Shown here in pieces: positions 18,925 through 43,348 of a DNA stretch of 64,000 bases. The position numbers and the translations under genes were made by a program. Numbering within the stretch: position 1 is the first letter of the stretch; each line of letters opens with the position of its first letter. The notes under the pieces are model-generated. The model had not been told where the DNA came from, did not search any database, and saw only the letters and a program-made list of their open reading frames with translations. This DNA comes from Muriicola marianensis (GTDB lineage: Bacteria; Bacteroidota; Bacteroidia; Flavobacteriales; Flavobacteriaceae): contig NZ_BMFH01000001.1 of the NCBI RefSeq assembly GCF_014638095.1, forward strand, positions 1,373,227 through 1,437,226, given 5' to 3'.

Positions 18925-19827
18925 TTACTTTGCTAATTGCAATTCCTTATCCTTCTTTGATTTACCGGGGGCATTCATGCCGAGTTCAGGGATCACTAAC
19001 AACGGCACCTGGGTGTGGAAGGCCATCCTGCGAACCACGGGTTCTCTGGTCATTCGTTCCATATAGCTGTGCTGGTAATTCAGCATGGCCAACAGGTGAA
19101 TATCCAACTCGTCTGCAAAGACTTCCAGGGTCTTGGAAACGGAATTGAGTTCGGAAACGGTGTGGACATAATGATCGATCTTATCGAAATACTTCCTCAG
19201 CATGTTGAGGTTAAACTGCTGTATCTCTGATAGCGCGCGAATTTTGTTCTGAACATAGACGATCCTAATCGAGGCCTTAAAGCTTTTGGCCAGTTCAATA
19301 AGAGGCTGAAGTTCCGAACGACTGTAATAACGCTTGAAATCCGTCGCAAAGACCAGTTCCTGTGGTTTTACGTAATCAAAATCCTTAGGGATGGTCAGCA
19401 CCGGACATTCCTTTACTGCCTTGATGATCCGAACCGTGTTACTACCCAGGAAGACCTCATCTACTCCTGAGGCTCCTTTGGTCCCGGTTACCACCAGGTC
19501 GATCCCCTCATTCTCCACCATATTCCTGATCTCTTCCACGAGGATGTTAAAAGACGATCTGAGTTTAAAGGTGTGCTTTTTATTCCTGAAATTCTCTTTG
19601 ATCTTGGTCAGGATCTCTTCCAGGCCTTTTTGGGAGTTCTCCCTACTACCCTCATCCAGTGGGCTCGACTGGGCATTGGAGGCCATAAACCTGCTGCTGG
19701 GAATCACAGGGGTGTAGGTGTTCAACAAATGGAATTCACATTCCTCTTTCTTAGTCAGCTCAAGGATATACCGGATGGCATTCCATGAATTATCCGAAAA
19801 ATCTGTGGGTAATAAGATGCGTTTCAT
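18925..19827 (-). CDS. Tandem universal stress protein (UspA family)
   Basis: A 300-residue protein with two Usp domains. The first (residues 1-150) starts MKRILLPTDFSDNSWNAI and has the ATP-binding pattern GxxGx9GS in GTKGASGVDEVFLGSN, then CPVLTIP. The second (about 155-280) starts ELVFATDFKRYYSRSEL but has lost the nucleotide motif (ERMTREPVVRRMAFHTQVPLLVIPE). This is usual for tandem Usp proteins. It has an Fnr-type dyad upstream (19883-19896), so induction at low oxygen is expected. Confidence 0.9.
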   Translation of the reverse strand: MKRILLPTDFSDNSWNAIRYILELTKKEECEFHLLNTYTPVIPSSRFMASNAQSSPLDEGSRENSQKGLEEILTKIKENFRNKKHTFKLRSSFNILVEEIRNMVENEGIDLVVTGTKGASGVDEVFLGSNTVRIIKAVKECPVLTIPKDFDYVKPQELVFATDFKRYYSRSELQPLIELAKSFKASIRIVYVQNKIRALSEIQQFNLNMLRKYFDKIDHYVHTVSELNSVSKTLEVFADELDIHLLAMLNYQHSYMERMTREPVVRRMAFHTQVPLLVIPELGMNAPGKSKKDKELQLAK

Positions 19828-19852
19828 AGGGATTTCTCTACAGTCACAGGGG

Positions 19853-19896
19853 TAAAAATAGAGAAGCCGTCCAGCGGAAACAATGACATTTATCAG
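19853..19896 (-). promoter_or_regulatory. Fnr-type dyad and -7 element of the stress protein gene
   Basis: ATGACATTTATCAG at 19883-19896 contains TGA-N6-TCA centred at 19889.5. On the minus strand a TATTTTTA -7-like element occupies 19860-19853. The centre-to-element distance is 29.5 bp, placing the dyad near -42 of a start at about 19846. Confidence 0.65.
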
Positions 19897-19970
19897 GTTT
19901 GACAGGGGCTCCCGGGAGATGGAGAAATTGTGATATTAAATCGGTAAGGAACTAGGTAGAGAAGATCCTG

Positions 19971-20660
19971 TCAGAAGCCGTCCACCAGATCGCGGAGTTT
20001 CTTTTCATCCTGGACTCCGATCTTTTTCCCGGAAGTCTTGATGTATTTCTTCTTCTTGAATTCAGAAATGATTCTGATACAGGACTCTGTGGCGGTCCCC
20101 ACGACATTGGCAATATCTTCCCTGGAAAGGGTAATGCTCAGGTAACCCTCTGCGTCTTCCCCAAAATTGTCTCTGAGATATAAGAATGCCTCTGCGATGC
20201 GTTGTTTCACTGTTTTTTGCGACATGTTTACAATCACGTCATCAGCTTCACGAAGATCATGCGCCATGTGCCGGAGTACCTCCACCGTAAAATTCGGGTT
20301 TTGATGCAAGGCGTCGACGATTCCCTCTTTAGGGATGTAACAGACCTCCATATCGCTCACAGCCACAGCGCTAAGATTGGAAGATTCCTCAGCGATCACA
20401 GAGCGTTGTCCCATGACCTCGCCCTTGCTGGCGAGTTTAACGATCTGGTCCTTGCCATTGGCGCTGAGTTTGGAAAGCTTTGATACCCCATCTCGAACAC
20501 AAAAGACACCATTGAGTTTTTCACCTTCGGAAAATATAGGATCTCCCTTCTTGATGATCTTGGTGGTTTTGGTATCCGAAACCCGTTTTAGCTCTTCTTT
20601 GCTCATAGCCCGCAAAGAATTGAATTGCCTGATGATGCAATTCTCGCATCTGCTTTTCAT
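19971..20660 (-). CDS. Crp/Fnr-family transcription regulator, FNR-like with three of four cluster cysteines
   Basis: A 229-residue regulator with N-terminal cysteine region, cyclic-nucleotide-type beta-roll (about 30-120), dimer helix (about 120-150) and winged HTH (about 170-215). RCENCIIRQFN at 4-14 aligns without gaps to E. coli FNR HCQDCSISQLC: C5 and C8 match C20 and C23, but N14 replaces C29. C107 (EVCYIP) matches C122 (MVCEIP) at the same 99-residue distance. C54 is extra. The recognition helix TESCIRII keeps FNR/CRP Glu and Arg but has Ile where FNR has Ser212. It sits divergently beside the fixI/cco genes and is the obvious reader of the dyads in this region. Confidence 0.9.
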   Translation of the reverse strand: MKSRCENCIIRQFNSLRAMSKEELKRVSDTKTTKIIKKGDPIFSEGEKLNGVFCVRDGVSKLSKLSANGKDQIVKLASKGEVMGQRSVIAEESSNLSAVAVSDMEVCYIPKEGIVDALHQNPNFTVEVLRHMAHDLREADDVIVNMSQKTVKQRIAEAFLYLRDNFGEDAEGYLSITLSREDIANVVGTATESCIRIISEFKKKKYIKTSGKKIGVQDEKKLRDLVDGF

Positions 20661-20747
20661 GAGGTACTTATTTCAATATTCTAAGGTACGACAATTTGAA
20701 GATTTCCCCATGGAACTCACGGGATTTTTCTGATTGGTAATACCGAT

Positions 20748-20760
20748 TCGCCCGAGGCGA
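20748..20760. repeat. Short inverted repeat upstream of the Fnr-like gene
   Basis: TCGCC-CGA-GGCGA, a 5-bp perfect inverted repeat in the fnr/fixI intergenic region. It might be an operator for the fnr side. No other support. Confidence 0.3.
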
Positions 20761-20776
20761 GGTGAAACGCTTTAAC

Positions 20777-20820
20777 CTGACTAATATCATGTTTTAGGGC
20801 TTCTCTTAATCGCATCTTTG
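20777..20820 (+). promoter_or_regulatory. Fnr-type dyad and -7 element of the fixI gene
   Basis: CTGACTAATATCATG (20777-20791) has TGA-N6-TCA centred at 20783.5. The -7-like element CATCTTTG is at 20813-20820, 29.5 bp from the centre, and 22 bp before the ATG at 20843. Same geometry as at the other low-oxygen promoters here. Confidence 0.65.
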
Positions 20821-20842
20821 CACCCAGGTATGAAGCAAATCT

Positions 20843-23218
20843 ATGGATAAAGAGCTCTGTTTTCACTGTGGGCTCCCCTGTGATGATGATACGGTCCTGT
20901 TTCAGGACAAGTCTTTTTGTTGCCCGGGTTGCAGAACAGTGTATGAGATATTCGACTCAAATGATCTCAGGTATTATTACGACCTGCAATCGGCTGCGGG
21001 AATCACTCCCAATTACACTCCGGGGAAATTCGATTTCCTGGGTGAACCCGAGATCGCAGAGCAACTGCTCGAGTTCAATGACGGAAGGCACGGGATCATC
21101 AACCTCTACATCCCCACCATGCATTGCAGTTCATGTATTTGGGTCCTGGAGAACCTGCAAAAACTGGCACCCGGGATTGTTCAGTCCCAGGTCGACTTTC
21201 CCAAAAAGACCGTAAGGATAACCTTCAATACAGATGAAGTATCCCTAAAGGATATAGCCATTTTGCTCGCCCGGATCGGGTATGAACCCACTATATCTCT
21301 TGCGGATTCAGGGCGAAAGGAAAAAACGGAGGACAAGAAACTTATCTATCAACTCGGGGTAGCGGGTTTTGCGTTCGGGAATATCATGTTCCTTTCCTTC
21401 CCTGAATACTTTGAAGTTGAAGAGTTCTGGCTAGAGCAGTATAAAGTTCTTTTCCGATGGCTGATGTTTGCCTTCTCCCTTCCCGTAGTATTCTACGCGG
21501 GACAGGACTATCTCATATCAGCCTACAAAGGTCTCAGGAGCAAATTCATGAATATAGACGTGCCTATTGCGCTCGGGATCCTCGTCCTCTTCATCCGCAG
21601 CACCCTGGAGATCACATTCGACTGGGGCAGTGGATTTTTTGACAGTTTGAGCGGACTCGTCTTCTTTCTCCTGCTGGGGAAGTATTTTCAAAAACGCACC
21701 TATTCCTTCCTCTCTTTTGAAAGGGATTATAAATCCTATTTCCCGGTAGCAGTTACCCGAATCGACCAGCAGGGTAGAGAGGAGATCGTACAGGTGAATC
21801 GGGTGATCAAAGGCGACCGACTCCTGATCAGGCACGGGGAGATCATACCTGTGGACGGGGTACTCGAGACCGGAGATGCAGAAATTGACTACAGTTTTGT
21901 CACCGGGGAGGCCAGGCCTGTCAACATAACAAAAGGTGAAAAGCTGTTTGCGGGCGGTAAGCAGCTCAGGGGACCCATAGAATTGCTGGCTACAGAAAAT
22001 GTCTCACAAAGCTATCTCACCCGGCTGTGGAGCCACTCCGTTTTCGGTGAGAAATCTGAAAGCAAGTTCAAGACCCTGACAGACCGCATCGGAAAAAGTT
22101 TTACCCTGGCGGTCCTTACTATTGCCCTTGTATCAGGGCTTTATTGGGCATTCACCGATCCTGCAGTGATCTGGAACGTCGTCACCGCCGTCCTGATCAT
22201 TGCCTGTCCCTGTGCCATTGCCCTGGCTGCACCCTTTACCATGGGCAATATGTTGCGCATTTTCGGCAAGCGCAAATTTTACCTCAAGGATGCTGTCGTG
22301 ATCGAAAAATTGGCAACAATAGACACAGTGATCTTTGATAAGACCGGGACCCTGTCCACCCGAAGATACGACCAGATAGAGTACGAGGGGAATGAACTTT
22401 CACCCCGGGAGAAATCCCTCTTGAAAAGTACCCTGAGAGCTTCCAACCACCCCCTGAGCCGTTCCCTGTACAACATGCTGAAAGAACAGGATATCACTGT
22501 TCTCGACTCTTATGAAGAACACATGGGACAGGGGCTTTACGGGAGCAAAGGGGATGCCTCTATCAAAATAGGGTCTTCGGAGTTTGTCGATAACTGCACC
22601 TCTGCTACTCCTGACAAATCGGTGGTTCACCTGAGTACAAACGAACAATACAGGGGACATTTTATCCTTCACAGCCAGTACAGGGACGGGGTCTCCCAAC
22701 TCATGTCAGAACTTGGAGAGCAGATGGAAATAGGGGTACTTTCAGGAGATCACGAGGGGGAGAGAAACCGCCTGGAAGCCTTGTTGCCGAACCTGACACC
22801 CATGTACTTCAACCAGAGTCCGGAAGATAAATTGTTCTTTGTCCGATCCCTGCAGGATTCAGGCAAAAAGGTCATGATGGTAGGTGACGGTCTGAACGAT
22901 GCTGGAGCCCTGGCACAAAGCGACGTGGGCATCGCCCTCTCAGAGGATATCAATGTCTTTTCCCCTGCTTGTGACGGTATCCTCGATGCGTCTAAGTTCA
23001 AATTCCTGGGCACCTATGTTGATGCCTCAAAACAGGCCATGCGCATTGTCAAAATTAGTTTTGTGCTGTCTCTGTTCTACAACCTCATCGGTTTGTATTT
23101 CGCCGTAACCGGCCAGTTGATGCCCGTTGTGGCAGCCATCCTCATGCCCCTGAGTTCGATCAGTATAGTGGCCTTCACCACCCTGGCGACCAACTGGGCA
23201 GGAAGAAAAATTAAATAA
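20843..23218 (+). CDS. ccoI: Copper-transporting P-type ATPase FixI/CcoI
   Basis: A 791-residue P1B ATPase that exports copper for assembly of the cbb3 oxidase. An N-terminal Cys-rich zinc-finger-like region (CFHCGLPC, CCPGC) precedes a heavy-metal-associated domain with MHCSSC. The intramembrane CPC is at 455-457, the phosphorylated Asp499 in DKTGT, and GDGLNDAGAL is the hinge motif; TGEARPV is the actuator loop. This plan matches CcoI rather than general CopA. It is followed by ccoS, which has its own promoter. Confidence 0.93.
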   Translation: MDKELCFHCGLPCDDDTVLFQDKSFCCPGCRTVYEIFDSNDLRYYYDLQSAAGITPNYTPGKFDFLGEPEIAEQLLEFNDGRHGIINLYIPTMHCSSCIWVLENLQKLAPGIVQSQVDFPKKTVRITFNTDEVSLKDIAILLARIGYEPTISLADSGRKEKTEDKKLIYQLGVAGFAFGNIMFLSFPEYFEVEEFWLEQYKVLFRWLMFAFSLPVVFYAGQDYLISAYKGLRSKFMNIDVPIALGILVLFIRSTLEITFDWGSGFFDSLSGLVFFLLLGKYFQKRTYSFLSFERDYKSYFPVAVTRIDQQGREEIVQVNRVIKGDRLLIRHGEIIPVDGVLETGDAEIDYSFVTGEARPVNITKGEKLFAGGKQLRGPIELLATENVSQSYLTRLWSHSVFGEKSESKFKTLTDRIGKSFTLAVLTIALVSGLYWAFTDPAVIWNVVTAVLIIACPCAIALAAPFTMGNMLRIFGKRKFYLKDAVVIEKLATIDTVIFDKTGTLSTRRYDQIEYEGNELSPREKSLLKSTLRASNHPLSRSLYNMLKEQDITVLDSYEEHMGQGLYGSKGDASIKIGSSEFVDNCTSATPDKSVVHLSTNEQYRGHFILHSQYRDGVSQLMSELGEQMEIGVLSGDHEGERNRLEALLPNLTPMYFNQSPEDKLFFVRSLQDSGKKVMMVGDGLNDAGALAQSDVGIALSEDINVFSPACDGILDASKFKFLGTYVDASKQAMRIVKISFVLSLFYNLIGLYFAVTGQLMPVVAAILMPLSSISIVAFTTLATNWAGRKIK

Positions 23219-23225: not shown

Positions 23226-23268
23226 TGATTTATGTCATTTTTTAAGGGTTTGAGCCAAAGTAGTTTTA
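23226..23268 (+). promoter_or_regulatory. Fnr-type dyad and -7 element of ccoS-ccoNOQP
   Basis: CTGATTTATGTCAT has TGA-N6-TCA at 23226-23237 (centre 23231.5). TAGTTTTA at 23261-23268 lies 29.5 bp from the centre and 19 bp before the ccoS ATG. This gives the oxidase structural genes a promoter separate from that of ccoI. Confidence 0.65.
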
Positions 23269-23287: not shown

Positions 23288-23503
23288 ATGAGTGTTATTT
23301 ATGTGTTACTCACCATTAGTATAGTGGTAGCAATCCTTTTTTTTATTGCCTTCATCCACTCTGTAAGGAGCGGCCAATACGAAGATTCCTATACCCCATC
23401 GGTAAGGATGCTCTTTGAGGATGAATTGCTCAAAACCGATGATTCCAAAGACCCCACCGCCCTTGAAACCCAAAAGACCAATTCTAAAAGCAAACAATTG
23501 TAA
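23288..23503 (+). CDS. ccoS: cbb3 oxidase assembly protein CcoS
   Basis: A 71-residue protein: one N-terminal membrane helix (VIYVLLTISIVVAILFFIAFI), then the family pattern SVRSGQYEDSYTPSVRMLFEDE. CcoS is needed for cofactor insertion into the cbb3 oxidase. It stops 2 bp before the ccoNO start. Confidence 0.9.
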   Translation: MSVIYVLLTISIVVAILFFIAFIHSVRSGQYEDSYTPSVRMLFEDELLKTDDSKDPTALETQKTNSKSKQL

Positions 23504-23505: not shown

Positions 23506-25707
23506 ATGGAAGTACAGCAATTTAGTTACGACAACCAGATCGTAAAGAAATTTATCTATGCCACCCTTTTCTGGGGGATCATTGGTATGCTGGTAGGCCT
23601 TCTGCTGGCCTTTATGTTTATGTTCCCCAACCTCACGGATGGGATCTCCTGGCTCAGTTTCGGGAGGCTGAGGCCGCTGCACACCAATGCAGTCATCTTT
23701 GCCTTTGTCGGTAATGCCATCTTTGCCGGGGTCTATTATTCCACCCAGCGATTGCTCAAAGCTCGCATGTTCAGCGACTTTCTGAGTAATCTGAATTTCT
23801 GGGGATGGCAGGCCATCATCGTGGCTGCGGCTGTTACCCTGCCCCTGGGATATACGACTTCAAAGGAATACGCAGAACTGGAATGGCCTATAGATCTGGC
23901 CATTGCCGTGATCTGGGTCGCCTTTGGCTTGAACCTCATAGGCACCATGATCAAGCGGCGCCAAAGGCACCTGTATGTAGCCATCTGGTTCTACCTGGCC
24001 ACCTTTGTGACCGTTGCGGTGCTTCATATTTTCAACAGCCTGGAACTACCCATCAGCGCCCTTAAGAGCTATTCGGTTTACGCTGGTGTACAGGACGCCC
24101 TGGTGCAGTGGTGGTACGGGCACAATGCTGTTGCCTTCTTCCTGACCACTCCCTTCCTGGGGCTTATGTATTACTTTGTTCCCAAAGCAGCCAACAGGCC
24201 GGTCTATTCCTACCGCCTGTCTATCGTGCACTTCTGGTCCCTGATCTTTATTTATATCTGGGCAGGACCCCACCACCTGCTGTACTCTGCCCTGCCAGAC
24301 TGGGCACAAAACCTGGGAGTTGCCTTCTCCGTTATGCTGATCGCACCTTCCTGGGGTGGTATGATCAACGGACTGCTGACTCTCAGAGGAGCCTGGGATA
24401 AGGTTCGCGTTGATCCTACCCTGAAATTTATGGTGGTCGCTATCACAGGATACGGGATGGCCACTTTTGAAGGCCCCATGCTCTCCCTGAAAAACGTAAA
24501 TGCAATTGCGCATTTCAGTGACTGGGTCATTGCACACGTGCATGTGGGAGCCCTCGCCTGGAACGGATTCCTGACCTTCGGTATGATCTACTGGTTGGTG
24601 CCAAAGATGTTCAAGACCCGCCTCCATTCGCTGCCCATGGCCAATTTCCATTTCTGGATTGGCACTCTTGGGATCATCCTCTACGCCCTGCCCATGTATG
24701 TGGCTGGATTCACACAGGCCCTGATGTGGAAGGACTTCAACCCGGATGGCAGCCTGGTGTACGGAAACTTCCTGGAAACTGTAAATGAGATCATGCCCAT
24801 GTATTGGATGAGAGCCATAGGAGGATCCCTCTACATTATCGGCTTTATCGTAATGCTGTACAACATTGTGGTCACCGTACGCTCGGGCAGTGCCGTGGTC
24901 GATGAGCAAGCAGAAGCCCCTGCCCTCACCAGGGTGTCCTCCAGAAGAACGGTTGGAGAGACCTTCCACACCTGGCTGGAGCGCAAACCTATACAGCTGA
25001 CCATTCTGGCCACTATCGCCATTCTCATTGGAGGGATCATACAGATCGTTCCTACCATCCTGGTGAAATCCAACATCCCGACCATCACCAGCGTAAAACC
25101 CTATACGCCTCTTGAATTGGAGGGGCGCGACCTCTATATACGCGAAGGCTGCGTCAGCTGCCACTCCCAAATGGTTCGTCCTTTCAGAAGCGAGGTGGAG
25201 CGATACGGGGAATACGCCAAAGCAGGGGAATTTGTCTATGACCATCCCTTCCTCTGGGGCAGTAAGCGCACCGGGCCAGACCTGCTGCGCGTGGGAGGCA
25301 AGTACTCCGATAACTGGCACCTGAACCATATGTACGACCCACAGAGTATGTCTGCCGGTTCCATTATGCCTGCCTACCAGTGGCTGGTAAGGGATGAGCA
25401 CGACCGAAGTGCAATTCAGGACAAGATGCGGGCCATGGTATCCCTCGGTGTTCCTTATACGGAGGAGGACATCAATAATGCCTTCGCCTCCATGGAAGAA
25501 CAGGCATTGCAGATCGAGATGAACCTGTATACAGATCCCGATTTTGCCAGGACATACGAAGAAGACAAGGCCAGGGCCTTGGAGGAAGGCAGGGAATTCG
25601 TGGAAATGAAAAACCGGGAGATCGTAGCCATGATCGCCTATCTCCAACGCCTGGGCACGGATATAAAGGTCAAGGAGACCGATCAACTCTTAACTGAAAA
25701 CAAATAA
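23506..25707 (+). CDS. ccoNO: Fused cbb3 cytochrome oxidase subunits I and II (CcoN-CcoO)
   Basis: A 733-residue fusion. Residues about 1-480 are the 12-helix heme-copper subunit CcoN (RLRPLHTNAVIFAFVGN with a heme ligand, WWYGHNAVAFFLTTPFLGLMYYFVPKAA, YIWAGPHHLLYSALPDW, WVIAHVHVGALAWNGF). After a linker (VSSRRTVGETFHTW) and one membrane helix, residues about 530-733 are CcoO with one c-type heme site EGCVSCHSQMVRPF (C549, C552, H553) and a methionine-bearing end (SIMPAYQWL). It reduces oxygen to water with high affinity and pumps protons. The fusion is usual in Bacteroidetes. Confidence 0.96.
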   Translation: MEVQQFSYDNQIVKKFIYATLFWGIIGMLVGLLLAFMFMFPNLTDGISWLSFGRLRPLHTNAVIFAFVGNAIFAGVYYSTQRLLKARMFSDFLSNLNFWGWQAIIVAAAVTLPLGYTTSKEYAELEWPIDLAIAVIWVAFGLNLIGTMIKRRQRHLYVAIWFYLATFVTVAVLHIFNSLELPISALKSYSVYAGVQDALVQWWYGHNAVAFFLTTPFLGLMYYFVPKAANRPVYSYRLSIVHFWSLIFIYIWAGPHHLLYSALPDWAQNLGVAFSVMLIAPSWGGMINGLLTLRGAWDKVRVDPTLKFMVVAITGYGMATFEGPMLSLKNVNAIAHFSDWVIAHVHVGALAWNGFLTFGMIYWLVPKMFKTRLHSLPMANFHFWIGTLGIILYALPMYVAGFTQALMWKDFNPDGSLVYGNFLETVNEIMPMYWMRAIGGSLYIIGFIVMLYNIVVTVRSGSAVVDEQAEAPALTRVSSRRTVGETFHTWLERKPIQLTILATIAILIGGIIQIVPTILVKSNIPTITSVKPYTPLELEGRDLYIREGCVSCHSQMVRPFRSEVERYGEYAKAGEFVYDHPFLWGSKRTGPDLLRVGGKYSDNWHLNHMYDPQSMSAGSIMPAYQWLVRDEHDRSAIQDKMRAMVSLGVPYTEEDINNAFASMEEQALQIEMNLYTDPDFARTYEEDKARALEEGREFVEMKNREIVAMIAYLQRLGTDIKVKETDQLLTENK

Positions 25708-25710
25708 GTC

Positions 25711-25890
25711 ATGCTGAAATTCGTCAAAAACCATATGGAGAGTATAGATGGAATAGCCACATATCCCATGATCTCCCTGCTGATCTTTTTTGTCTTCTTT
25801 GCCCTGTTGTTCTGGTGGGTCTTTACGGCCTCCAAAGAGCATATCAAAGAAGTAAGTGAAATCCCATTAGATGATAATCAACCAAAATAA
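25711..25890 (+). CDS. ccoQ: cbb3 oxidase small subunit CcoQ
   Basis: A 59-residue protein, MLKFVKNHMESIDGIATYP, with one membrane helix (ISLLIFFVFFALLFWWVFT) and a polar acidic tail (EVSEIPLDDNQPK). Position between ccoNO and ccoP, size and topology match CcoQ, which stabilises the complex. Only 3 bp separate it from ccoNO and 6 bp from ccoP. Confidence 0.88.
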   Translation: MLKFVKNHMESIDGIATYPMISLLIFFVFFALLFWWVFTASKEHIKEVSEIPLDDNQPK

Positions 25891-25896
25891 AAGGAC

Positions 25897-26841
25897 ATGA
25901 GAAATTCAACACCCTGGTGGATCAGGATCCCATTAATTTTCTTCTTTATTTTCGGCCTTGTCGAATACTACGTGGATTCGGGCGATAAGCCAGCCTTTAT
26001 CGAATACCCCATGGTACAGTTGTTCCTGTTCATGGTGCTACTTATCCTGATCGCCATTGAACTCATCGTGAATTCGGTAGAAAATGTGCTCTTTCAGACC
26101 CTGCCGGAAGACGCCAAGGAACGATACCTCAACGCAAAGTCCGGTTCCTGGTCCTGGGCTTGGGGCAAGAGGATGTACAAAAAACTCCTGGGATCAAGGC
26201 CTATTGAGGAAGAAGGGGAGATCATCCTGGACCACAACTATGACGGCATCAAAGAACTCGACAACAAACTTCCGCCCTGGTGGGTGTATCTCTTTTATGC
26301 CACCATCCTGTTCGGGGTGGTCTATATGGCCCGCTTCCACGTGTTCAATGACTACACACAGGATCAGGAATACGAGATGGAGGTAGCCTCGGCCCAGGCC
26401 GCTATAGAAGAATACCGAAGGACCGCCAAGGATCTGGTAGACGTCAATACGGTGACCCTCCTGACAGATGCATCCGACCTGAATGCAGGTAAGGTGATCT
26501 TCGAGACCAATTGCGTGGTGTGCCATATGGCAGACGGTGGCGGGGGTATCGGACCGAACCTTACAGATGATTACTGGATCCTCGGAGGAGGCATAAAGAA
26601 TGTCTACCGGACTATCTCAGAAGGGGGACGGGACGGAAAGGGAATGATCGCCTGGAAACAATCGCTTAAACCGGCCGAAATAGCGCAGGTAGCCAGCTAC
26701 CTGCTCACCTTCCAGGGCACGACCCCTGCCAATCCCAAGGCTCCTGAAGGAGAGATCTGGATAGATGAAAACGCCCCGAAAGAGGTGAGCCCACAGGAAG
26801 AGACTCTATCGGATTCTACTGATGTGGTCATGAACGAATAA
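25897..26841 (+). CDS. ccoP: cbb3 oxidase subunit III, mono-heme CcoP
   Basis: A 314-residue membrane-bound cytochrome c. Two N-terminal helices (about 11-26 and 38-58), a cytosolic loop, then a third helix (PPWWVYLFYATILFGVVYMARF) that matches the CcoP core anchor, and a single cytochrome c domain with CVVCH (C206, C209, H210) and GMIAWKQSLKP as the Met loop. Proteobacterial CcoP has two heme domains; here only one CXXCH exists. The extra N-terminal helix pair and the acidic C-tail are Bacteroidetes features. Confidence 0.93.
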   Translation: MRNSTPWWIRIPLIFFFIFGLVEYYVDSGDKPAFIEYPMVQLFLFMVLLILIAIELIVNSVENVLFQTLPEDAKERYLNAKSGSWSWAWGKRMYKKLLGSRPIEEEGEIILDHNYDGIKELDNKLPPWWVYLFYATILFGVVYMARFHVFNDYTQDQEYEMEVASAQAAIEEYRRTAKDLVDVNTVTLLTDASDLNAGKVIFETNCVVCHMADGGGGIGPNLTDDYWILGGGIKNVYRTISEGGRDGKGMIAWKQSLKPAEIAQVASYLLTFQGTTPANPKAPEGEIWIDENAPKEVSPQEETLSDSTDVVMNE

Positions 26842-26861
26842 GAGAGTAAAGGGCTGTACTT

Positions 26862-28277
26862 GTGGCTGATAATGAACGATTCCGGGATTCCATAGGGACC
26901 ATCAATGAAGAAGGCAAGCGAGCCTGGGTGTTCCCAAAAAAACCTGCAGGCAGGTTTTACGAGTATCGGAAATACGTCAGTTATGTGCTGCTGGTATTCC
27001 TTTTTGCGGCTCCCTTTGTCAAGATCAACGGAAACCAGTTCCTGATGTTCAACGTGCTGGAAAGGCGGTTCAATATCTTTAGCTACCCATTCTGGCCCCA
27101 GGATTTTCACTTATTTGTCATCTCCATGATCACAGGGGTGATCTTCGTGGCCCTGTTCACTGTGGCCTATGGCAGGATATTCTGCGGATGGATGTGCCCC
27201 CAGACTATTTTTATGGAAATGGTCTTCAGACGGATAGAGTACTGGATAGACGGGGACAGGGGAGCCCAGATGAGACTGGCCAGGCAATCCTGGAATGGGG
27301 AAAAGATCCGGAAGCGAGTCTTGAAATGGAGTATTTTTTTCCTTATCTCCTTTCTGATCGCCAATGTGTTCCTCGCCTACCTCATCGGCAGCGATACCCT
27401 GATCCGTTATATAACCGAAGGGCCATTGCAACACCTCAGTACCCTGGCCTCCCTCCTGATCTTTACGGGAGTATTCTACTTTGTCTTTGCTTGGTTCAGG
27501 GAACAGGTCTGCATCATTGCCTGCCCCTACGGCCGGTTACAGGGGGTTCTGCTCGATAATAAATCCATCGTTGTGGCCTATGACCACAAAAGGGGAGAAG
27601 CGGAAAAGGGCAGGAAGAAATTCAGGAAAGGAGAGGACCGCGAAGCCCTTGGATACGGGGATTGTATCGACTGCTTTCAATGCGTACACGTCTGTCCGAC
27701 AGGGATAGACATCCGCAACGGCACCCAACTGGAATGTGTGAATTGTACGGCCTGTATTGATGCCTGCGATGAAATCATGGAAAAGGTAAATCTTCCCAAA
27801 GGGCTGATCCGCTACGCCAGCGAGGATAATATAGAAAAGAAAGCAAAGTTCTCCTTTACGCCGAGGATGATGGGATACTCCGCAGTGCTTGTTGTCCTAA
27901 CCGGGATTTTGGTCGGGATGCTCTTCCTCAGGAACGATCTGGAAGCTGCTATTTTGCGCCTACCGGGTCAGTTGTACGAACGAAAGGAGGGGAATATCAT
28001 CAGCAATGTGTACACCTTCAAACTCATCAATAAGACCACCCGGGATGTGGAGGATGTCAGCTTTAAACTGCTCTCCCACCCCGGTAAGATCGAGGTGGTC
28101 ACGCACAGGAATTTCAAGGTTCCAGCAGAGCAGTTAACGGAAGGCACATTATTTATAGAAATCAACACCGGAGACCTGGATACAGATAAGGATAAACTGA
28201 GTATTGGAGTGTTCAGCGGGGAAACACTGCTGGAAACTGCTACGACGCGTTTTCTAGGGCCGAGGAATTATTATTGA
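26862..28277 (+). CDS. ccoG: cbb3 oxidase accessory ferredoxin CcoG
   Basis: A 471-residue membrane protein with five or so helices and a FixG/CcoG ferredoxin domain. NapH-like CGWMCPQTIF and CIIACPYGRLQG motifs precede two [4Fe-4S] clusters (CIDCFQCVHVCP and CVNCTACIDACDE), then a C-terminal Ig-like IG_FixG domain ending TTRFLGPRNYY. It starts with GTG (GTGGCTGATAAT) 20 bp after ccoP; a TTG two bases upstream is out of frame. CcoG is a copper reductase for oxidase assembly. Confidence 0.94.
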   Translation: MADNERFRDSIGTINEEGKRAWVFPKKPAGRFYEYRKYVSYVLLVFLFAAPFVKINGNQFLMFNVLERRFNIFSYPFWPQDFHLFVISMITGVIFVALFTVAYGRIFCGWMCPQTIFMEMVFRRIEYWIDGDRGAQMRLARQSWNGEKIRKRVLKWSIFFLISFLIANVFLAYLIGSDTLIRYITEGPLQHLSTLASLLIFTGVFYFVFAWFREQVCIIACPYGRLQGVLLDNKSIVVAYDHKRGEAEKGRKKFRKGEDREALGYGDCIDCFQCVHVCPTGIDIRNGTQLECVNCTACIDACDEIMEKVNLPKGLIRYASEDNIEKKAKFSFTPRMMGYSAVLVVLTGILVGMLFLRNDLEAAILRLPGQLYERKEGNIISNVYTFKLINKTTRDVEDVSFKLLSHPGKIEVVTHRNFKVPAEQLTEGTLFIEINTGDLDTDKDKLSIGVFSGETLLETATTRFLGPRNYY

Positions 28278-28307
28278 AATCAAAATTGAACTGGTAAAAC
28301 AAAGATT

Positions 28308-28754: not shown

Positions 28755-28763
28755 TTAAACGTA

Positions 28764-29471: not shown

Positions 29472-29521
29472 TGTACCCGTGTGATACAAACCGTATTCTG
29501 TAATAAAATTAAACTTACCCT

Positions 29522-37354: not shown

Positions 37355-39307
37355 TTATTCACCCAGTGACCAGGACAATTCCACATTGGAATTAGCCGGA
37401 GATACGCGAACATATCCCTGCATTTCCTGGTGCAGAGCCGAACAGAAGTCGGTGCAATAGAATGGCCATACCCCTACTTGTTTGGGTTCCCAAAGCGTGG
37501 TCTTGGTCTGGCCCGGCATCACCAGGATCTCAGAGGTATTTTGCCCGATGATCGAAAAACCATGGGGGACATCAAAGTCCTGTTCGTGGTTGGTAATATG
37601 GAAATACACCTTATCCCCTACCTTGATACCCTCTATATTATCAGGAGTGAAGTGGCTTCGGATGGTCGACATATAGACATGTACCTCGTTTCCACTGCGC
37701 TCTACTCTTGCCTGATCCGGACTCGGGGTGACGTATGCGTGCTTGTTCTCGTCTAACCGGTAAATTTTCTTGGATCTTGGCTCCAGCAACTCAGCAGGAC
37801 AACCCGCAGCATAGTGGGGTTCCCCGTGGGTTGGGAAGTCGTACAGCAACTCCATCTTTTCACCGGAAATATCATAGATCTGGGCAGAGTGCTCCATTTC
37901 CGGACCTGTTGGCAGGTAGCGGTCCTTGGTGATCTTATTCATGGCCACCAGATACTTGGCAAAAGGTTTCCTTGAATTTCCTCCCGGGATCATCAGGTGT
38001 CCCACGGAGTAATAAGTGGGTTTCCTGTCGAGTACTTCCCAGGTACCCACATTCCATTTCACAACTTCGGAAGAGATGAAGAAGGTGGTATAAGCGTTAC
38101 CTCTGTCGTCAAATTCGGTGTGTAATGGGCCTAATCCTCCACTTTTTACGGTTCCTGCAAGTACCTCTTCGAACTTGAGAATAGGAATTCCATAGGCCTC
38201 TCCGTCAAATTTTTCACCTTCTATCGCTGCCATCATCTTATCAAAGGAATGTACAGTTATATCGGCAGACAACTTACCGCTACCAATGATATACTGACCT
38301 GTGGGATCCACGTCACATCCGTGAGGGGATTTTGGAGTGGGAAGCAGGTAAATCGCTCCGGGTACTTCTGTTGGATCAACGGTAATGACCTCTTTTTTCA
38401 TCGTAGAGGTACCTGTATGGGTGTGTTCATCGTAGACGTTATGGGCGTAATTGGCAGCCATCTTTGTACCGCCGCCGTTCTTCACATACTCTTCTATCTT
38501 CATCCAGTTCACAGCGGCAATAAAATCCTTGTCATTCTGTGAAGCCATAACTTCCAGGAGGGAATTGGCCTCTTCGGTATTATAGGTGGAGAAGAAGAAC
38601 CAACCGTGAGATTTAGCTCTTCCCGGACGAGAAAGGTCATAATTGAATCCGGGCATCAGAACCTGAAATTCAAGGTTGAGACGGCCATTATCAGGAGCCA
38701 CACTCACAAAGGAAAGGGCTCCCTTGAAGTTGCCTTTGTACTCATTGATCGGCATATCTCGTTGTGGAACTGGTACTGAAAAACGGGTTCCCGCCACGAC
38801 ATACTCTGTATTCTCAGTGATAAAGGAAGAACTGTGGTTCCCTGCACTATTGGGGATCTCGATGATCTCCTCGGTCTCAAAAGTGCTCAGGCTCACCCGG
38901 GCCAGACGGGGCGTATTGTTTCCGTTTACAAAGATCCAGCGACCATCGAGTTCTCCATTGGTCTGGGAGATATCAGGGTGGTGCAGGTCATCCCAGGGCA
39001 CAAAACCAAAGGAGGTGTTGAGCATGGGCTTGGTCTCTTCAGAATAGCCATATCCGGAAGTTGGGAACTGCGAGAAAACGGGGATTTCTTTGAACATACG
39101 TCCGGAAGGTAATCCGTATACTGTTAGGTTACCACTATAACCCCCGGACAGGAAGGCGTAATAGGTATCCCTTTCACCGGGCGCGACGTACACCTTTTCG
39201 GCCGCACTGGAGGATAAGGCCCCATTTGATTTGCCCGAGTCGTTACAGCCGATGAAGACCATCGCCAGTCCGAGCAATCCAAGTATTGAATATCTGACTT
39301 TTTTCAT
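37355..39307 (-). CDS. nosZ: Nitrous-oxide reductase NosZ, clade II (Sec-exported lipoprotein form)
   Basis: A 650-residue copper enzyme reducing N2O to N2. The N-terminus is a Sec-type lipoprotein signal (LAMVFIGC, Cys21), not a twin-arginine leader, which is the clade II hallmark. The seven-bladed propeller holds CuZ histidines (AYGIPILKFEEV and LHTEFDDRGNAY regions, ISPHGCDVDP-type motif KSPHGCDVDPTGQYI). The C-terminal cupredoxin carries CuA ligands in CTDFCSALHQEM (C618, C622, H626, M629). No nitrite or nitric-oxide reductase genes are in the window, so this may be a non-denitrifying N2O reducer. Confidence 0.96.
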   Translation of the reverse strand: MKKVRYSILGLLGLAMVFIGCNDSGKSNGALSSSAAEKVYVAPGERDTYYAFLSGGYSGNLTVYGLPSGRMFKEIPVFSQFPTSGYGYSEETKPMLNTSFGFVPWDDLHHPDISQTNGELDGRWIFVNGNNTPRLARVSLSTFETEEIIEIPNSAGNHSSSFITENTEYVVAGTRFSVPVPQRDMPINEYKGNFKGALSFVSVAPDNGRLNLEFQVLMPGFNYDLSRPGRAKSHGWFFFSTYNTEEANSLLEVMASQNDKDFIAAVNWMKIEEYVKNGGGTKMAANYAHNVYDEHTHTGTSTMKKEVITVDPTEVPGAIYLLPTPKSPHGCDVDPTGQYIIGSGKLSADITVHSFDKMMAAIEGEKFDGEAYGIPILKFEEVLAGTVKSGGLGPLHTEFDDRGNAYTTFFISSEVVKWNVGTWEVLDRKPTYYSVGHLMIPGGNSRKPFAKYLVAMNKITKDRYLPTGPEMEHSAQIYDISGEKMELLYDFPTHGEPHYAAGCPAELLEPRSKKIYRLDENKHAYVTPSPDQARVERSGNEVHVYMSTIRSHFTPDNIEGIKVGDKVYFHITNHEQDFDVPHGFSIIGQNTSEILVMPGQTKTTLWEPKQVGVWPFYCTDFCSALHQEMQGYVRVSPANSNVELSWSLGE

Positions 39308-39933: not shown

Positions 39934-40437
39934 TTAAAGGGTTCTGAAATATTCTAGGATAGCACGGGCCTGTTCCTCGGTCAGATTCTGATTGGCCATG
40001 GCCGCTCCGTTAAACTCAACCAGGAGGTCTTTAGCGCAGCGGTCCTGCTCTACCATCAATTGTGGGTCCAGTATCATATTCATGATCCATTCAGGGCTGC
40101 GCCTTTCCATGATGCCTTTTGGGCTTGGGCCGATAAACCGCTTGTCTATCTTGTGACAGGCCGTGCAATTGGTCTTGAAGATAGCTTCGCCTTGGGCGAC
40201 CATCTCGGTATTGATCTCAGGGTCCAGGGTAAGCTCTTTGATAGGCCCCACCCCTTTTTCATCCAGGGTGATTCGCTGGGAAGCAGGTACCTCATTGGTG
40301 GTCGCAGGTGTTTCTGTATTGACCTCAGAGGATTTGCTCCTTTCGACGCTGAATCCTTCTTTTTTTTCTTCTTTGTCCCCACAAGCGAACAGTAGCAGGG
40401 AGCATAATAAAACAATAGATCTTACAATGATTTTCAT
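39934..40437 (-). CDS. Mono-heme c-type cytochrome lipoprotein of the nos operon
   Basis: A 167-residue lipoprotein (lipobox LLFAC, Cys19) with a disordered linker (about 22-70) and one cytochrome c domain: heme site CTACH (C91, C94, H95), a GPSPKGIMERRSPEWIMNMILDPQLMVEQD region with candidate Met ligands, and the closing helix LTEEQARAILEYFRTL. As the first gene of the nos operon it is the likely electron donor to NosZ. Transcribed from the shared Fnr-type promoter region. Confidence 0.92.
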   Translation of the reverse strand: MKIIVRSIVLLCSLLLFACGDKEEKKEGFSVERSKSSEVNTETPATTNEVPASQRITLDEKGVGPIKELTLDPEINTEMVAQGEAIFKTNCTACHKIDKRFIGPSPKGIMERRSPEWIMNMILDPQLMVEQDRCAKDLLVEFNGAAMANQNLTEEQARAILEYFRTL

Positions 40438-40461: not shown

Positions 40462-40506
40462 CTAAATTAGGGGTGGAGGAAGGGATAAAGTATGATAAAT
40501 ATCATA
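40462..40506 (-). promoter_or_regulatory. Fnr-type dyad and -7 element of the nos operon
   Basis: TATGATAAATATCATA at 40491-40506 is the best dyad in the window, with perfect half-sites TATGAT/ATCATA (centre 40498.5). The minus-strand -7-like element TAATTTAG is at 40469-40462, again 29.5 bp from the centre. Predicted start near 40456, 19 nt before the cytochrome c ATG. Confidence 0.7.
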
Positions 40507-40510: not shown

Positions 40511-40535
40511 GGATAATAATATCCTTTTATATTTT
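40511..40535 (+). promoter_or_regulatory. Rrf2-gene promoter with a second inverted repeat
   Basis: The plus-strand -7-like element TATATTTT is at 40528-40535, also 29.5 bp from the same dyad centre (40498.5), so the one dyad can serve both directions. GGATAATAATATCC (40511-40524), a perfect inverted repeat GGATA-ATAA-TATCC, fills the spacer on the Rrf2 side only. It is a good candidate operator for autorepression by the Rrf2 protein. Confidence 0.5.
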
Positions 40536-40571
40536 TCCTGAATTTTTAAGTAATACCCTTACCTTTATCAC

Positions 40572-41009
40572 ATGCTGAGTAACTCCTCAAAATACGCCCT
40601 CACAGCCGTCCTTTACCTCGCAGCGCATACGGATGACCGTCAAAAAAAAATGGTGAAGGACCTGAGTGCCTCCACCAATATCCCAAAAGCCTATCTGGCT
40701 AAACTGTTGCAACAACTTTCGAGACATAACATAATTTCAGCCACCAAAGGACCAAAGGGAGGGTATTACCTCACGGAAGAGAACAGAAACCTGCCGGTCT
40801 ACAGCCTTATAGAGGTGATCGACGGCACGCAGCGGATGGAATCCTGTGTACTGGGAATTGAAGAATGTAATGCAGAACGGCCCTGTCCCCTTCACGACCA
40901 TGTGTATCCGGCTCGAGATGCATTTCTGGGGACATTGAAGAAAATGACGATCGGAGACCTGTCACGGGACCTGAAGAACGGGAGTTCTTTTTTAACCGCG
41001 CAGCAATAG
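40572..41009 (+). CDS. Rrf2-family Fe-S transcription regulator
   Basis: A 145-residue Rrf2 regulator: winged HTH in residues 1-70 (LSNSSKYALTAVLYLAAH, IPKAYLAKLLQQLSRHNIISATKGPKGGYYL) and the cluster-binding cysteines C92, C99 and C105 in ESCVLGIEECNAERPCPLHDH. This Cys triad is as in NsrR and IscR, which sense NO or Fe-S state. Divergent from the nos operon and sharing its control region, an NsrR-like NO-responsive role is plausible. No isc or suf genes are nearby, which makes an IscR role less likely. Confidence 0.88.
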   Translation: MLSNSSKYALTAVLYLAAHTDDRQKKMVKDLSASTNIPKAYLAKLLQQLSRHNIISATKGPKGGYYLTEENRNLPVYSLIEVIDGTQRMESCVLGIEECNAERPCPLHDHVYPARDAFLGTLKKMTIGDLSRDLKNGSSFLTAQQ

Positions 41010-41087
41010 AATCACATCCGACATATAACTAATTATGCCGGAATCAAATACTGGGTTCAACCCCCATGATCTTATTTACAGAAAATC

Positions 41088-41909
41088 CTAGATCTTAAAA
41101 GTGATCACAGGCACCTTGGAATGGTTAGTGATGTCTTCCCCTATACTGCCCATAAAGAAATGTGACAATCCCTTTCTGCCATGGGTGGGAATACCGATCA
41201 GGTCGGCATTGATACTCTCACTGAAATTCAGTACGCCCTTCTCCACACTGTAGTCATTGTAAATAGTCACTTCCTGTCCGGCACCTGCCATTTCCAGGTA
41301 TTTGTTGATCTTTTCATAGGCATCATTGGTGCTGAGAAAATCATCTCCCGGGGTATTGATATAGACCATGTGCAGTTTAGCCCCGAGCTTGGAGGCGAAG
41401 TCCCTTGCCTTTTGGAAAGCGCTCAGGCTTTCGCTCTTGAAGTTACAGGCAAAGACGAAGTTGTCTATCTTGAAACCCGGTAGTTCACTCTTTACGACCA
41501 GGACGGGTATCTCGGAATGCCTGACCACCTTCTCGGCGTTAGATCCCACAAAAATCTCCCTAAGACCGTCTGATCCGTGAGACCCCATGATGATCATATC
41601 GGCATTGTGTTTCTCCGCAATCTCATTCACCTCTCCAAAAACTTTAAAGTGCTTGATCACCGGAGTGAGCTTGATCCCTTTCAAATAGTCCTTATCCAGA
41701 AATTCGCTCAGCCTTTTCTCTGCGAGCTTCAGCAGGAAAACAGTTTGTTCCGGATGGAAGCCTTCTGAGGAGGTAATCATGGCCTCGTTCAATTCGAGCA
41801 TGTGCAGTACCAGGATCTCAGACTGTTGTTTTTTAGCAAGGGAGGCTGCTACTTTAAGGGCGTATTCTGATTGTTCTGAGAAATCGACAGGAACGATAAT
41901 AGTTTTCAT
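41088..41909 (-). CDS. Tandem universal stress protein (UspA family)
   Basis: A 273-residue protein with two Usp domains. The first starts MKTIIVPVDFSEQSEYALKVA and has the ATP motif GxxGx9GS in GSHGSDGLREIFVGSN, then IPVLVVK. The second (about 148-273) begins NFVFACNFKSESLSAFQKARDF and ends THGRKGLSHFFMGSIGEDITNHSKVPVITFKI, a shortened motif. It lies 17 bp after hemN on the same strand and is thus under the hemN Fnr-type promoter, giving a second stress protein in the same regulon. Confidence 0.9.
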   Translation of the reverse strand: MKTIIVPVDFSEQSEYALKVAASLAKKQQSEILVLHMLELNEAMITSSEGFHPEQTVFLLKLAEKRLSEFLDKDYLKGIKLTPVIKHFKVFGEVNEIAEKHNADMIIMGSHGSDGLREIFVGSNAEKVVRHSEIPVLVVKSELPGFKIDNFVFACNFKSESLSAFQKARDFASKLGAKLHMVYINTPGDDFLSTNDAYEKINKYLEMAGAGQEVTIYNDYSVEKGVLNFSESINADLIGIPTHGRKGLSHFFMGSIGEDITNHSKVPVITFKI

Positions 41910-41926
41910 GGATTAGGATTAAAGGG

Positions 41927-43288
41927 TTAAATCGTCATTGAAAATACTCTTTTTTCCGGAGCTTTTCTATGCAGTAACAGGTCAAATGCCATACAGACAT
42001 TCCGGATAAATGGACGCCCCGCTTCAGTAACGCGAAGAGTGGCATCATTAGTATCCACCAGTACGTCTAATTTCATCTCTTCCAGATGATCCAGGACGAG
42101 GTCGAGTTCGTCAAATTTCATGTAATCCTCTTCCCAGGATGTCTCCAGCCTGCACATCAAGTTAAGGATGTGGCGGCGGATTACCAAATCTTCCCTGTTG
42201 AGAATGTGCCCCCTGTAAATGGGGATGATCCCATTCTCAATCAGGTGCTGGTATTCCTCTATACTCTTGACATTCTGGGCAAATCCATACCAGCTGTCGC
42301 TGATACTTGAAGCTCCAAGCCCTATCATCAACTGGGTCTTTGAAGCCGTATAACCCATGAAATTACGATGCATTCTCTTCTCGGTGAAAGATTTGTACAG
42401 GCCATCCGACTGCAGTGCAAAATGATCCATACCAATCTCAAAGTAACCCGCCTCCGTCAGTCGTTTTTTTCCATATTCATATTGCATCCTCTTCGCTTCG
42501 GGAGAGGGCAGGTCCTCGTCTCTGAATCCTCTCTGTCCATTCCCTTTCATCCAGGGCACATGGGCATAACTGTAGAAGGCCAGCCTGTCTGGAAGCAATT
42601 CCAGGGTACGGGCCATGGTCTCCTCAATATCTTCAATCCTCTGGTGAGGCAGGCCAAAGATCAGGTCGTGCCCTACGGATGTATACCCTATTTCCCTTGA
42701 CCATTCAGTTACCTTTTTTACATTTTCAAAGGGCTGGACCCTCGAAATAGCTTTCTGTACCTTTAAACTGTAATCCTGTACCCCGTAACTCACCCTGCGG
42801 AAACCGAGGTCGTACAAGGTCTGCAAGTGTTCCCGGGTCGTATTGTTGGGGTGTCCTTCAAAGCTGAATTCACAATTTTTGTCGATCTCCGCGTTGCGAA
42901 AGAGGCCTTTTATCAGCACCCCCAGGTGTTCGGGTGAAAAGAAGGTGGGAGTTCCTCCCCCCAGGTGCAACTCCTTTATTTTGGGCTTGGAAGAGAATAG
43001 ATCGCAGTACAGTTGCCATTCCCTGAGAACAGATTTTATATAGGGGATCTCTACTTCATGCCTCTTGGTGATGCGTTTGTGACACCCGCAAAAAGTACAC
43101 ATGCTCTCACAATAGGGCAAGTGGATGTAAAGGCTTATACCCTCTTTGTCATTGCTCTCCTCAAAGCTCCTTTTCACGGATTCTTTCCAGGCCTTACCGG
43201 AAAATGTGTTGACATCCCAGTAAGGTACGGTGGGGTAACTGGTGTACCTCGGACCCTGAACATTGTACTTCTGGATCAGATTGCTCAT
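41927..43288 (-). CDS. hemN: Oxygen-independent coproporphyrinogen III oxidase
   Basis: A 453-residue radical SAM enzyme making protoporphyrinogen for heme without oxygen. The cluster motif is YIHLPYCESMCTFCGCHK (C60, C64, C67, plus C69), the genuine HemN form CxxxCxxC-x-C rather than the HemW form. LHLGGGTPTFF, ISYGVQDYS-like VSYGVQDYSLKVQKAISRVQPF and GHDLIFGLPHQ also fit. Heme supply under low oxygen matches the cbb3 and nos genes nearby. Confidence 0.95.
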   Translation of the reverse strand: MSNLIQKYNVQGPRYTSYPTVPYWDVNTFSGKAWKESVKRSFEESNDKEGISLYIHLPYCESMCTFCGCHKRITKRHEVEIPYIKSVLREWQLYCDLFSSKPKIKELHLGGGTPTFFSPEHLGVLIKGLFRNAEIDKNCEFSFEGHPNNTTREHLQTLYDLGFRRVSYGVQDYSLKVQKAISRVQPFENVKKVTEWSREIGYTSVGHDLIFGLPHQRIEDIEETMARTLELLPDRLAFYSYAHVPWMKGNGQRGFRDEDLPSPEAKRMQYEYGKKRLTEAGYFEIGMDHFALQSDGLYKSFTEKRMHRNFMGYTASKTQLMIGLGASSISDSWYGFAQNVKSIEEYQHLIENGIIPIYRGHILNREDLVIRRHILNLMCRLETSWEEDYMKFDELDLVLDHLEEMKLDVLVDTNDATLRVTEAGRPFIRNVCMAFDLLLHRKAPEKRVFSMTI

Positions 43289-43304
43289 AGAAATCGATTT
43301 CTTT

Positions 43305-43348
43305 CAAAATTACACAGAGGCCGGCAGGTAAAACATGACAAAAATCAT
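43305..43348 (-). promoter_or_regulatory. Fnr-type dyad and -7 element of hemN-usp
   Basis: CATGACAAAAATCATC has TGA-N6-TCA at 43336-43347 (centre 43341.5). The minus-strand -7 element TAATTTTG at 43312-43305 is a perfect TAnnTTTG, 29.5 bp from the centre. Predicted start about 10 nt upstream of the hemN ATG. Confidence 0.7.

Follow-up and report, generated by a model that had tools for sequence, protein, structure and literature searches.

A stretch of 64,000 nucleotides from the genome of the marine flavobacterium Muriicola marianensis (the window, by which we always mean that whole stretch) carries genes of a cbb3 oxidase, a nitrous oxide reductase and oxygen-independent haem synthesis together with the gene of an Fnr-like protein (19971-20660), and it raises the question of whether the short palindromic dyads in front of these genes are sites from which that protein would switch them on when oxygen falls. 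The original prediction named five TGA-N6-TCA dyads and six promoter directions in which the dyad centre lies 29.5 bp from the first base of a TAnnTTTG-like -7 element, and it had the Fnr-like protein drive all of them. Our analysis confirms the observation, which is general and larger than first noted, and with a probability of roughly 0.8 we read the set, from its sequence, as a predicted low-oxygen regulon under class II-type activation by the Fnr-like protein.

In class II activation the dyad centre is found at -41.5. The dyads described here stand at a fixed 29.5 bp from the first base of the -7 element, which would put their centres at about -40 to -42 if the start sites are as assumed. 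For the promoters themselves, PMC7366714 gives TAnnTTTG as the -7 consensus, with the element of Bacteroides thetaiotaomicron centred at -7, and reports a -33 motif in Bacteroides, none having been identified in Flavobacterium johnsoniae.

Dyads and spacing in the window and in the genome

All five dyads and all six octamers were recovered in the window, every one at the position and with the letters originally given (Table 1). TGA-N6-TCA alone was considered as an informative sign and rejected: the window has 47 such loose matches (22 are expected from shuffles), 10 matches to the tighter form TGAY-N4-RTCA, and five with a properly spaced -7 element, these last being the dyads of the original prediction. 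The -7 score used below is the number of letters matched of the six fixed letters in TAnnTTTG, and a gap of 23 bases between dyad and octamer is the same as 29.5 bp from the dyad centre to the first base of the octamer. Among the ten tight dyads, only the noted five are accompanied at gap 23 by an octamer that scores at least 5, so that 6 of 20 directions carry one, where about 0.1 would be expected from the window-wide rate of 0.44%.

A genome-wide scan of dyad and spacing had been proposed beforehand as a check, and it was run on the 3.03 Mb genome with TGAY-N4-RTCA in front, TANNTTT behind and a gap of 8 to 38 bases between the two. It can be seen that gap 23 alone takes 21 of the 49 matches, with the remaining 28 spread over the other 30 gaps, and that with one mismatch allowed there are 69 matches at gap 23 in the whole genome as compared with 13 for the reversed pattern. 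Stop-to-stop frames of at least 150 amino acids enclose only 3 of the 19 different dyads that have an exact match at gap 23. The corresponding figure for dyads at other gaps is eight of nine (matches with a locus, excluding dyads that double as gap-23 dyads), and the ninth, at G000:C1:1361252-1361294, is a good-looking dyad outside the long frames whose -7 element stands at gap 24 and not 23.

The form of the sites was taken from the directions in which a dyad has a -7 element matching four or more of the six letters. There are 42 of these, at 37 dyads, in 20 stretches around matches, three loci and the window, and they therefore describe the stretches examined rather than the whole genome. 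These sites were preselected on TGAY-N4-RTCA, the other positions being unselected. The base before TGA is A in 23, C in 16, G in 2 and T in 1 (A or C in 39 of 42), the middle of the dyad is A/T, and T follows the promoter-side TCA in 37 of 42, the mirror position on the far side having the matching A in 23. The original prediction had the dyad take the place of the -33 element, which it may do. Between dyad and -7 element, TTTG recurs at most twice at any one place in the 42 sites, a count that has no ordinary-promoter control.

Conservation in relatives

The best 80 of 563 fnr loci (L034-L113) served as relatives, and the ratios cover readable upstream regions. All 79 fixI regions and all 74 ccoS regions have the dyad, as do 77 of the 78 usp regions, and the -7 score at gap 23 is at least 5 for 75 of 79, 74 of 74 and 77 of 77 of these dyads in the same order. 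For the three promoters the mean score is about 5.0 of 6 with the gap at 23 and at most 3.3 with any of the remaining gaps between 15 and 33. The sequence has drifted in the spacer (mean commonest-base frequency 0.54-0.57) but not in the -7 core (0.95-1.00).

The described likeness of the octamers to TAnnTTTG holds for the six directions with one reservation, namely that the fixI octamer begins with C; in the relatives its first base is T in 0 of 79 and C in 65 of 79. The final letter of the octamer is A at 73 of 74 ccoS and 76 of 77 usp promoters. Each of the three promoters keeps its own departure of about one letter from TAnnTTTG, and this perhaps keeps them activator-dependent.

No match to hemN was found within the 80 fnr loci. 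The nos comparison used the best 30 of 89 genomes with nosZ, our own genome included, with the best-scoring dyad within 1.5 kb chosen at each locus; on these terms a gap-23 site is present upstream of nos in 30 of 30 loci, with a good -7 element in all 30, a mean score of 5.9 and octamers that are nearly all full matches to TAnnTTTG. As for the promoter towards the Rrf2 gene, its octamer TATATTTT is in place as predicted, but its conservation is the weakest among the directions tested, a score of 5 being reached in 8 of 30 nos loci vs 2.2% at other gaps.

In Escherichia coli a single CRP site is able to serve divergent promoters. The region between fnr and fixI has exactly one dyad in 79 of 79 relatives (one of the 80 loci is without fixI), and in 62 of 79 this single dyad is flanked on both sides, at 29.5 bp, by a -7 element that scores at least 5. 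Towards fixI the element reads CAnnTTTG in 62 of 79, and towards fnr it reads TAnnTTTG in 49 of 70 upstream regions with the dyad. Since the two elements are mirror images around one dyad, fnr is predicted to be self-activated, probably in most of these relatives. The fnr-side -7 element at 29.5 bp is absent from the window and from three Muriicola-labelled loci (L034-L036), where fnr lies 60-125 bp beyond the usual 61 bp from the dyad; fourteen other loci likewise have none. With this element missing in the window (20660-20783) and in the Muriicola-labelled loci, the window has lost its fnr-side promoter element, and the control of fnr seems to have been rewired there.

Predicted members of the regulon

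First genes were assigned mechanically, as an open reading frame of at least 80 amino acids starting within 450 bp, and because of this a few are doubtful (e.g., frames of 83 and 92 amino acids), and ccoS, with 71 amino acids, was skipped and ccoN assigned instead. A candidate was obtained for 41 of 42 directions, of which 40 were scanned with Pfam and 8 of these 40 had no match. In the window, the predicted targets are the cbb3 oxidase, FixI, nos, Rrf2, hemN and universal stress protein (Usp) genes. Elsewhere they include pyruvate:ferredoxin oxidoreductase (PFOR), pyruvate phosphate dikinase (PPDK) and PEP carboxykinase (PEPCK), a second 2-oxoacid:ferredoxin oxidoreductase that faces a ferredoxin gene, thioredoxin, an S30AE (hibernation-type) protein, a multihaem cytochrome, carbonic anhydrase, CBS-domain proteins, MlaE, a phosphate transporter, an amino acid permease and a glycosyltransferase. 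Four Usp genes are first genes, one in the window and three more, and a fifth sits behind hemN. The target set reads as one for low-oxygen life, although some members are without an evident link to it.

The Fnr-like protein

The Fnr-like protein belongs to the Crp/Fnr superfamily by its cyclic-nucleotide (cNMP)-binding beta-roll (PF00027, 6.5e-17) and its helix-turn-helix (HTH) domain HTH_Crp_2 (PF13545, 6.4e-15), and its recognition helix has the form E-x-x-I-R, which none of the other three Crp/Fnr proteins that pass the Pfam cut-off in this genome shares. Its closest named orthologue, with 95% identity, is from Muriicola jejuensis, and those named next likewise come from Flavobacteriaceae; on this basis the family labelled f1 in our survey is taken as Flavobacteriaceae. 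The cysteines C5, C8, C54 and C107 are shared by all 80 orthologues compared (the best 80 of 563), and the recognition helix is T-E-S-[AC]-I-R in most of them. Among 21 homologues in 20 further stretches across the order, 18 (35-79% identity) keep all four cysteines; two homologues of family f5 have none of the four in place, with a cysteine one residue off C107 in one. The remaining one is encoded at L239 (G201:C12:115900-117600) by a second Fnr-like gene in tandem with fnr; it keeps two of the four cysteines, and its recognition helix is altered.

The ligand cysteines of FNR are C20, C23, C29 and C122. The best PDB matches of our protein among those including the N-terminus are chains of FNR-type regulators (5e44 and others), in which C5 and C8 align with the CxxC of FNR and C107 with the cysteine of its VCEIP stretch; we take C107 to be the equivalent of C122. 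C54 aligns with an alanine in the FNR chains, so that three of the four ligand positions are aligned and the fourth cysteine is C54, not one at the position of C29. A putative metal cluster would sit on C5, C8, C54 and C107. The FNR box is TTGAT-N4-ATCAA, and a T precedes TGA in only 1 of our 42 sites; the box (A/C)TGAY-N4-RTCAT is neither that of FNR nor that of CRP.

On our main reading, the dyads are probably binding sites of the FNR-like activator encoded at 19971-20660, which would carry a putative oxygen-labile cluster on the four cysteines and would dimerise when oxygen falls. The dimer would bind (A/C)TGAY-N4-RTCAT about 41 bp upstream of the start site and, in class II style, recruit RNA polymerase with the primary sigma factor of Bacteroidota at promoters of the TAnnTTTG type. 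The functions switched on in this way would be the cbb3 oxidase, nitrous oxide reductase, anaerobic haem synthesis and ferredoxin-linked oxoacid metabolism, along with the ribosome-hibernation-type protein and several Usp proteins. What the sequences show are the sites, their fixed spacing and genome-wide enrichment, their conservation and linkage to genes, and the cysteines conserved with them; binding, activation, oxygen sensing and the start sites are predictions.

The promoter code across genomes and its possible readers

In a survey of 246 sampled genomes of the order, 110 have an Fnr match (cut-off 1e-30) and show the gap-23 pattern 1090 times vs 129 for the reversed pattern, and the 136 without a match show 251 vs 70; an excess of at least 5 over the control is found in 74 of 110 and in 7 of 136, respectively. 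The same split within family f7 gives 133 vs 16 in 24 genomes with a match and 7 vs 2 in 15 without. The 38 genomes of family f5 have 262 vs 40, though the two homologues viewed from this family are without the four cysteines. Outside the order, 28 genomes of the class have 174 vs 18, and 149 genomes from other classes of the phylum have 202 vs 55.

Several results weigh against the Fnr-like protein as an FNR-type reader of all these sites. The best single PDB match of the protein is 2gau, another Crp/Fnr regulator, aligned without its N-terminus, and the FNR chains only follow it; the third N-terminal cysteine of FNR is missing; and NCBIfam Fnr (NF008365), the best family match, scores 100.9 bits, below the cut-off of 228. 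By cysteine positions, family cut-off and box, this FNR-like protein does not pass as FNR proper. The order, class and phylum counts above are uncorrected for kinship, and in four f1 genomes the excess stays below 5 despite an Fnr match. Of the seven genomes with an excess of at least 5 but no Fnr match, five (G039, G102, G167, G236 and G241) are from family f1 and keep the code. Moreover, the reversed-pattern control is imperfect, since the 131 genomes of the order with neither the Fnr match nor the fusion regulator described below have 182 vs 66 (mean 1.4 vs 0.5), with 54 vs 11 in the 40 small f16 genomes among them.

In the five Fnr-less f1 genomes, the best matches to the Fnr query are frames of 350-372 amino acids. 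Those of G236 and G102 are fusions of receiver, cNMP and Crp-HTH domains (REC-Crp) behind a PAS histidine kinase, that of G241 reads like such a fusion, and those of G039 and G167 match the fusion along the full length. REC-Crp is present in 28 of 246 genomes at E 1e-60, including all five. Since Fnr-less relatives keep the code and carry another regulator, the code is no proof of its reader. The original prediction is supported as to a low-oxygen regulon, an FNR-like regulator and a class II-like geometry. That the Fnr-like protein drives all the sites is well supported in this organism without being established or exclusive; it is favoured by a gene that adjoins its own sites and is a predicted target in 62 of 79 relatives, and by the only E-x-x-I-R helix among the four Crp/Fnr proteins above the cut-off, and is opposed by the Fnr-less relatives.

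We hold it for somewhat likelier than its opposite that the code is not owned by the Fnr-like protein, but would be read by any Crp/Fnr protein with an E-x-x-I-R helix, the sensors (FNR-like, REC-Crp fusion with PAS histidine kinase, or short Crp proteins) having been exchanged between lineages. Both the Fnr-like protein and REC-Crp have this helix. Mean sites per f1 genome are 11.7 with Fnr only (n = 18), 23.1 with both (n = 17) and 13.8 with REC-Crp only (n = 5), against controls of 1.8, 1.6 and 0.8, but this correlation may reflect shared ancestry or genome size. The gap-23 site at ccoS is kept in 3 of 3 Fnr-less genomes with ccoN (G039, G236 and G241), and by coordinates G039 and G241 have such a site 1.2-1.3 kb upstream of nosZ; the same three also hold a shorter Crp-like match (with an internal stop in G236), so that REC-Crp is only a candidate for the reader there. 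On the other hand, G102 and G167 have no ccoN match, G102 has nosZ with no exact site near it, and G236 and G167 have no nosZ among the matches listed. For the window itself, REC-Crp was not found in the M. marianensis genome at E 1e-60 and its four Crp-type frames are only 213-245 amino acids long; the Fnr-like protein is therefore the best candidate here, and likely the reader in this organism.

It is improbable that the dyads are instead read by one of the other three Crp/Fnr proteins of the genome (at C2:138 kb, C1:96 kb or C1:2243 kb). All three are, with the Fnr-like protein, Crp-type HTH proteins above the Pfam cut-off, and in the one at C1:2243 kb the recognition helix, R-E-V-V-T-R, still has its glutamate and arginine. 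Shortly after the HTH part of this gene comes a dyad whose -7 element scores 5 (TGACCGCAGTCA). However, the proteins at C2:138 kb and C1:96 kb are without the glutamate, and there is no TGAY-N4-RTCA in the 3.3-3.5 kb loci around them. E. coli CRP reads the G before TGA at a place where the C1:2243 kb protein has an arginine, yet G precedes TGA in only 2 of 42 sites. None of the three has the four cysteines at the aligned positions.

Still less probable is repression from the dyads, or class I activation of promoters that lie elsewhere, because a rigid 23-bp gap in unrelated promoters and in both directions fits activation beside the polymerase. Furthermore, in another species, Flavobacterium psychrophilum, the cbb3 oxidase and haem-synthesis enzymes go up under oxygen limitation according to PMC9723704. 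Chance matches in AT-rich intergenic DNA would account for the abundance of loose TGA-N6-TCA (47 in the window), but the gap-23 peak, the reversed-pattern control and the conservation make such an origin of the set practically inconceivable, and we rejected it, with single sites such as the Rrf2-ward promoter remaining uncertain.

Observations beside the window genes

The coordinates of the features are collected in Table 1, where ccoN-ccoO is a fusion in one frame of 733 amino acids. Elsewhere, L153 (G000:C2:483400-494500) is a cluster with five dyad promoter directions and genes for two Usp proteins, a flavin reductase, a metallo-beta-lactamase/rhodanese protein and a relative of DUF2267 proteins, and it looks like a hypoxia island. 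In G102 (L192 and L193), sites crowd around the PAS kinase/REC-Crp pair and the neighbouring Usp genes, which have dyad promoters, and a second stretch with dyad sites has acetate kinase and phosphate acetyltransferase. In G241, the neighbours of the fused ccoNO match the window at 23506-30793 with 56-83% identity, no fnr orthologue having been found in that genome; the matched block holds ccoP and others up to an acetyl-CoA hydrolase-type gene.

Table 1. Coordinates of the dyads, -7 octamers and genes in the window.
Feature	Position	Strand	Remarks
Usp gene (predicted target)	18925..19827	-	Pfam Usp 4.2e-23
-7 octamer TATTTTTA for usp	19853..19860	-	29.5 bp from dyad centre
Dyad TGACATTTATCA	19884..19895		centre 19889.5; usp promoter
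Fnr-like regulator, 229 aa	19971..20660	-	C5, C8, C54, C107; recognition helix T-E-S-C-I-R
Dyad TGACTAATATCA	20778..20789		centre 20783.5; fixI promoter; fnr-side -7 missing in window
-7 octamer CATCTTTG for fixI	20813..20820	+	
fixI/ccoI-type metal ATPase (predicted target)	20843..23218	+	Pfam E1-E2_ATPase, HMA, ATPase-cat_bd
Dyad TGATTTATGTCA	23226..23237		centre 23231.5; ccoS-ccoNO-ccoP promoter
-7 octamer TAGTTTTA for ccoS	23261..23268	+	
ccoS (FixS)	23288..23503	+	
Fused ccoN-ccoO, cbb3 oxidase	23506..25707	+	Pfam COX1 + FixO, single open reading frame
ccoP (FixP)	25897..26841	+	
nosZ, Sec-dependent nitrous-oxide reductase	37355..39307	-	TIGR04246 920.2 bits vs cut-off 625
Cytochrome c, first gene of nos cluster	39934..40437	-	
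-7 octamer TAATTTAG towards nos	40462..40469	-	
Dyad TGATAAATATCA	40493..40504		centre 40498.5; divergent nos / Rrf2 promoters
-7 octamer TATATTTT towards Rrf2	40528..40535	+	
Rrf2-family regulator	40572..41009	+	
Usp gene downstream of hemN	41088..41909	-	
hemN, oxygen-independent coproporphyrinogen III oxidase (predicted target)	41927..43288	-	TIGR00538 413.9 bits vs cut-off 324.95
-7 octamer TAATTTTG for hemN	43305..43312	-	
Dyad TGACAAAAATCA	43336..43347		centre 43341.5; hemN promoter

Comparison with known systems

With FNR of E. coli and A. fischeri the protein shares the Crp/Fnr domains, the N-terminal CxxC, the C122-equivalent cysteine and the TGA core, and with FNR class II promoters a fixed dyad distance upstream of the -10/-7 element and respiration targets. 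It differs in having an invariant C54 instead of the third N-terminal cysteine, and the box begins (A/C)TGAY here but TTGAT for FNR, with promoters here of the TAnnTTTG type. The FixL-FixJ-FixK/FixK2 system of rhizobia likewise controls cbb3 and fixI-type genes under microoxia, and the REC-Crp with its PAS kinase in Fnr-less relatives resembles FixJ joined to FixK. Unlike that system, this genome has no REC-Crp that we found, and the Fnr-like protein has cysteines of its own; haem binding by the PAS kinase would be putative at most. The DosR dormancy regulon of mycobacteria shares Usp, ferredoxin and a hibernation-type ribosome protein under hypoxia control; DosR, however, is a LuxR-type response regulator unrelated to Crp, unlike the Fnr-like protein.

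From the published side, clade II nos scaffolds are enriched in Rrf2 regulators, as stated in PMC6264515. A wastewater study (PMC8510549) hypothesised that Crp/Fnr homologues of Flavobacteriales, Saprospiraceae and Ignavibacteria are MalR-like carbon sensors; these MalR-like proteins of Bacteroidota are of the same superfamily, but the Fnr-like protein is set apart by its four invariant cysteines and its predicted low-oxygen targets, and the two may or may not form one subgroup. No FNR box or regulon of Bacteroidota, and no dyad with this spacing, was found in the open literature, a weak absence as subscription journals lie mostly outside it: the words crp and palindrom are absent from the main text of PMC9723704, and bacteroidota, bacteroidetes and flavobacter from that of PMC12531629.

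Conclusions

The main interest lies outside the window, in a promoter code that seems to be kept where the sensor is another one. We tentatively propose, at somewhat less than even odds, that Bacteroidia share a single promoter code for low oxygen, in which the dyad stands at a fixed 23 bp from the -7 element, and that this code outlives its reader, with the FNR-like protein and its new ligand set, the PAS-kinase/REC-Crp pair and possibly short Crp proteins as interchangeable sensors. If this is true, the sensing chemistry would have been swapped with regulon and geometry unchanged.

Little seems to have been written on the global activators of Bacteroidota, whose primary sigma factor and promoter are unusual. 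With a dyad-promoter rule that is rigid and easy to scan, sequence alone would suffice to predict a low-oxygen regulon, with nitrous oxide reductase among its members, in many flavobacteria, and the rule would permit a clean test of class II activation on a different promoter type. It also indicates natural experiments in which the sensor may have been changed and the promoters kept.

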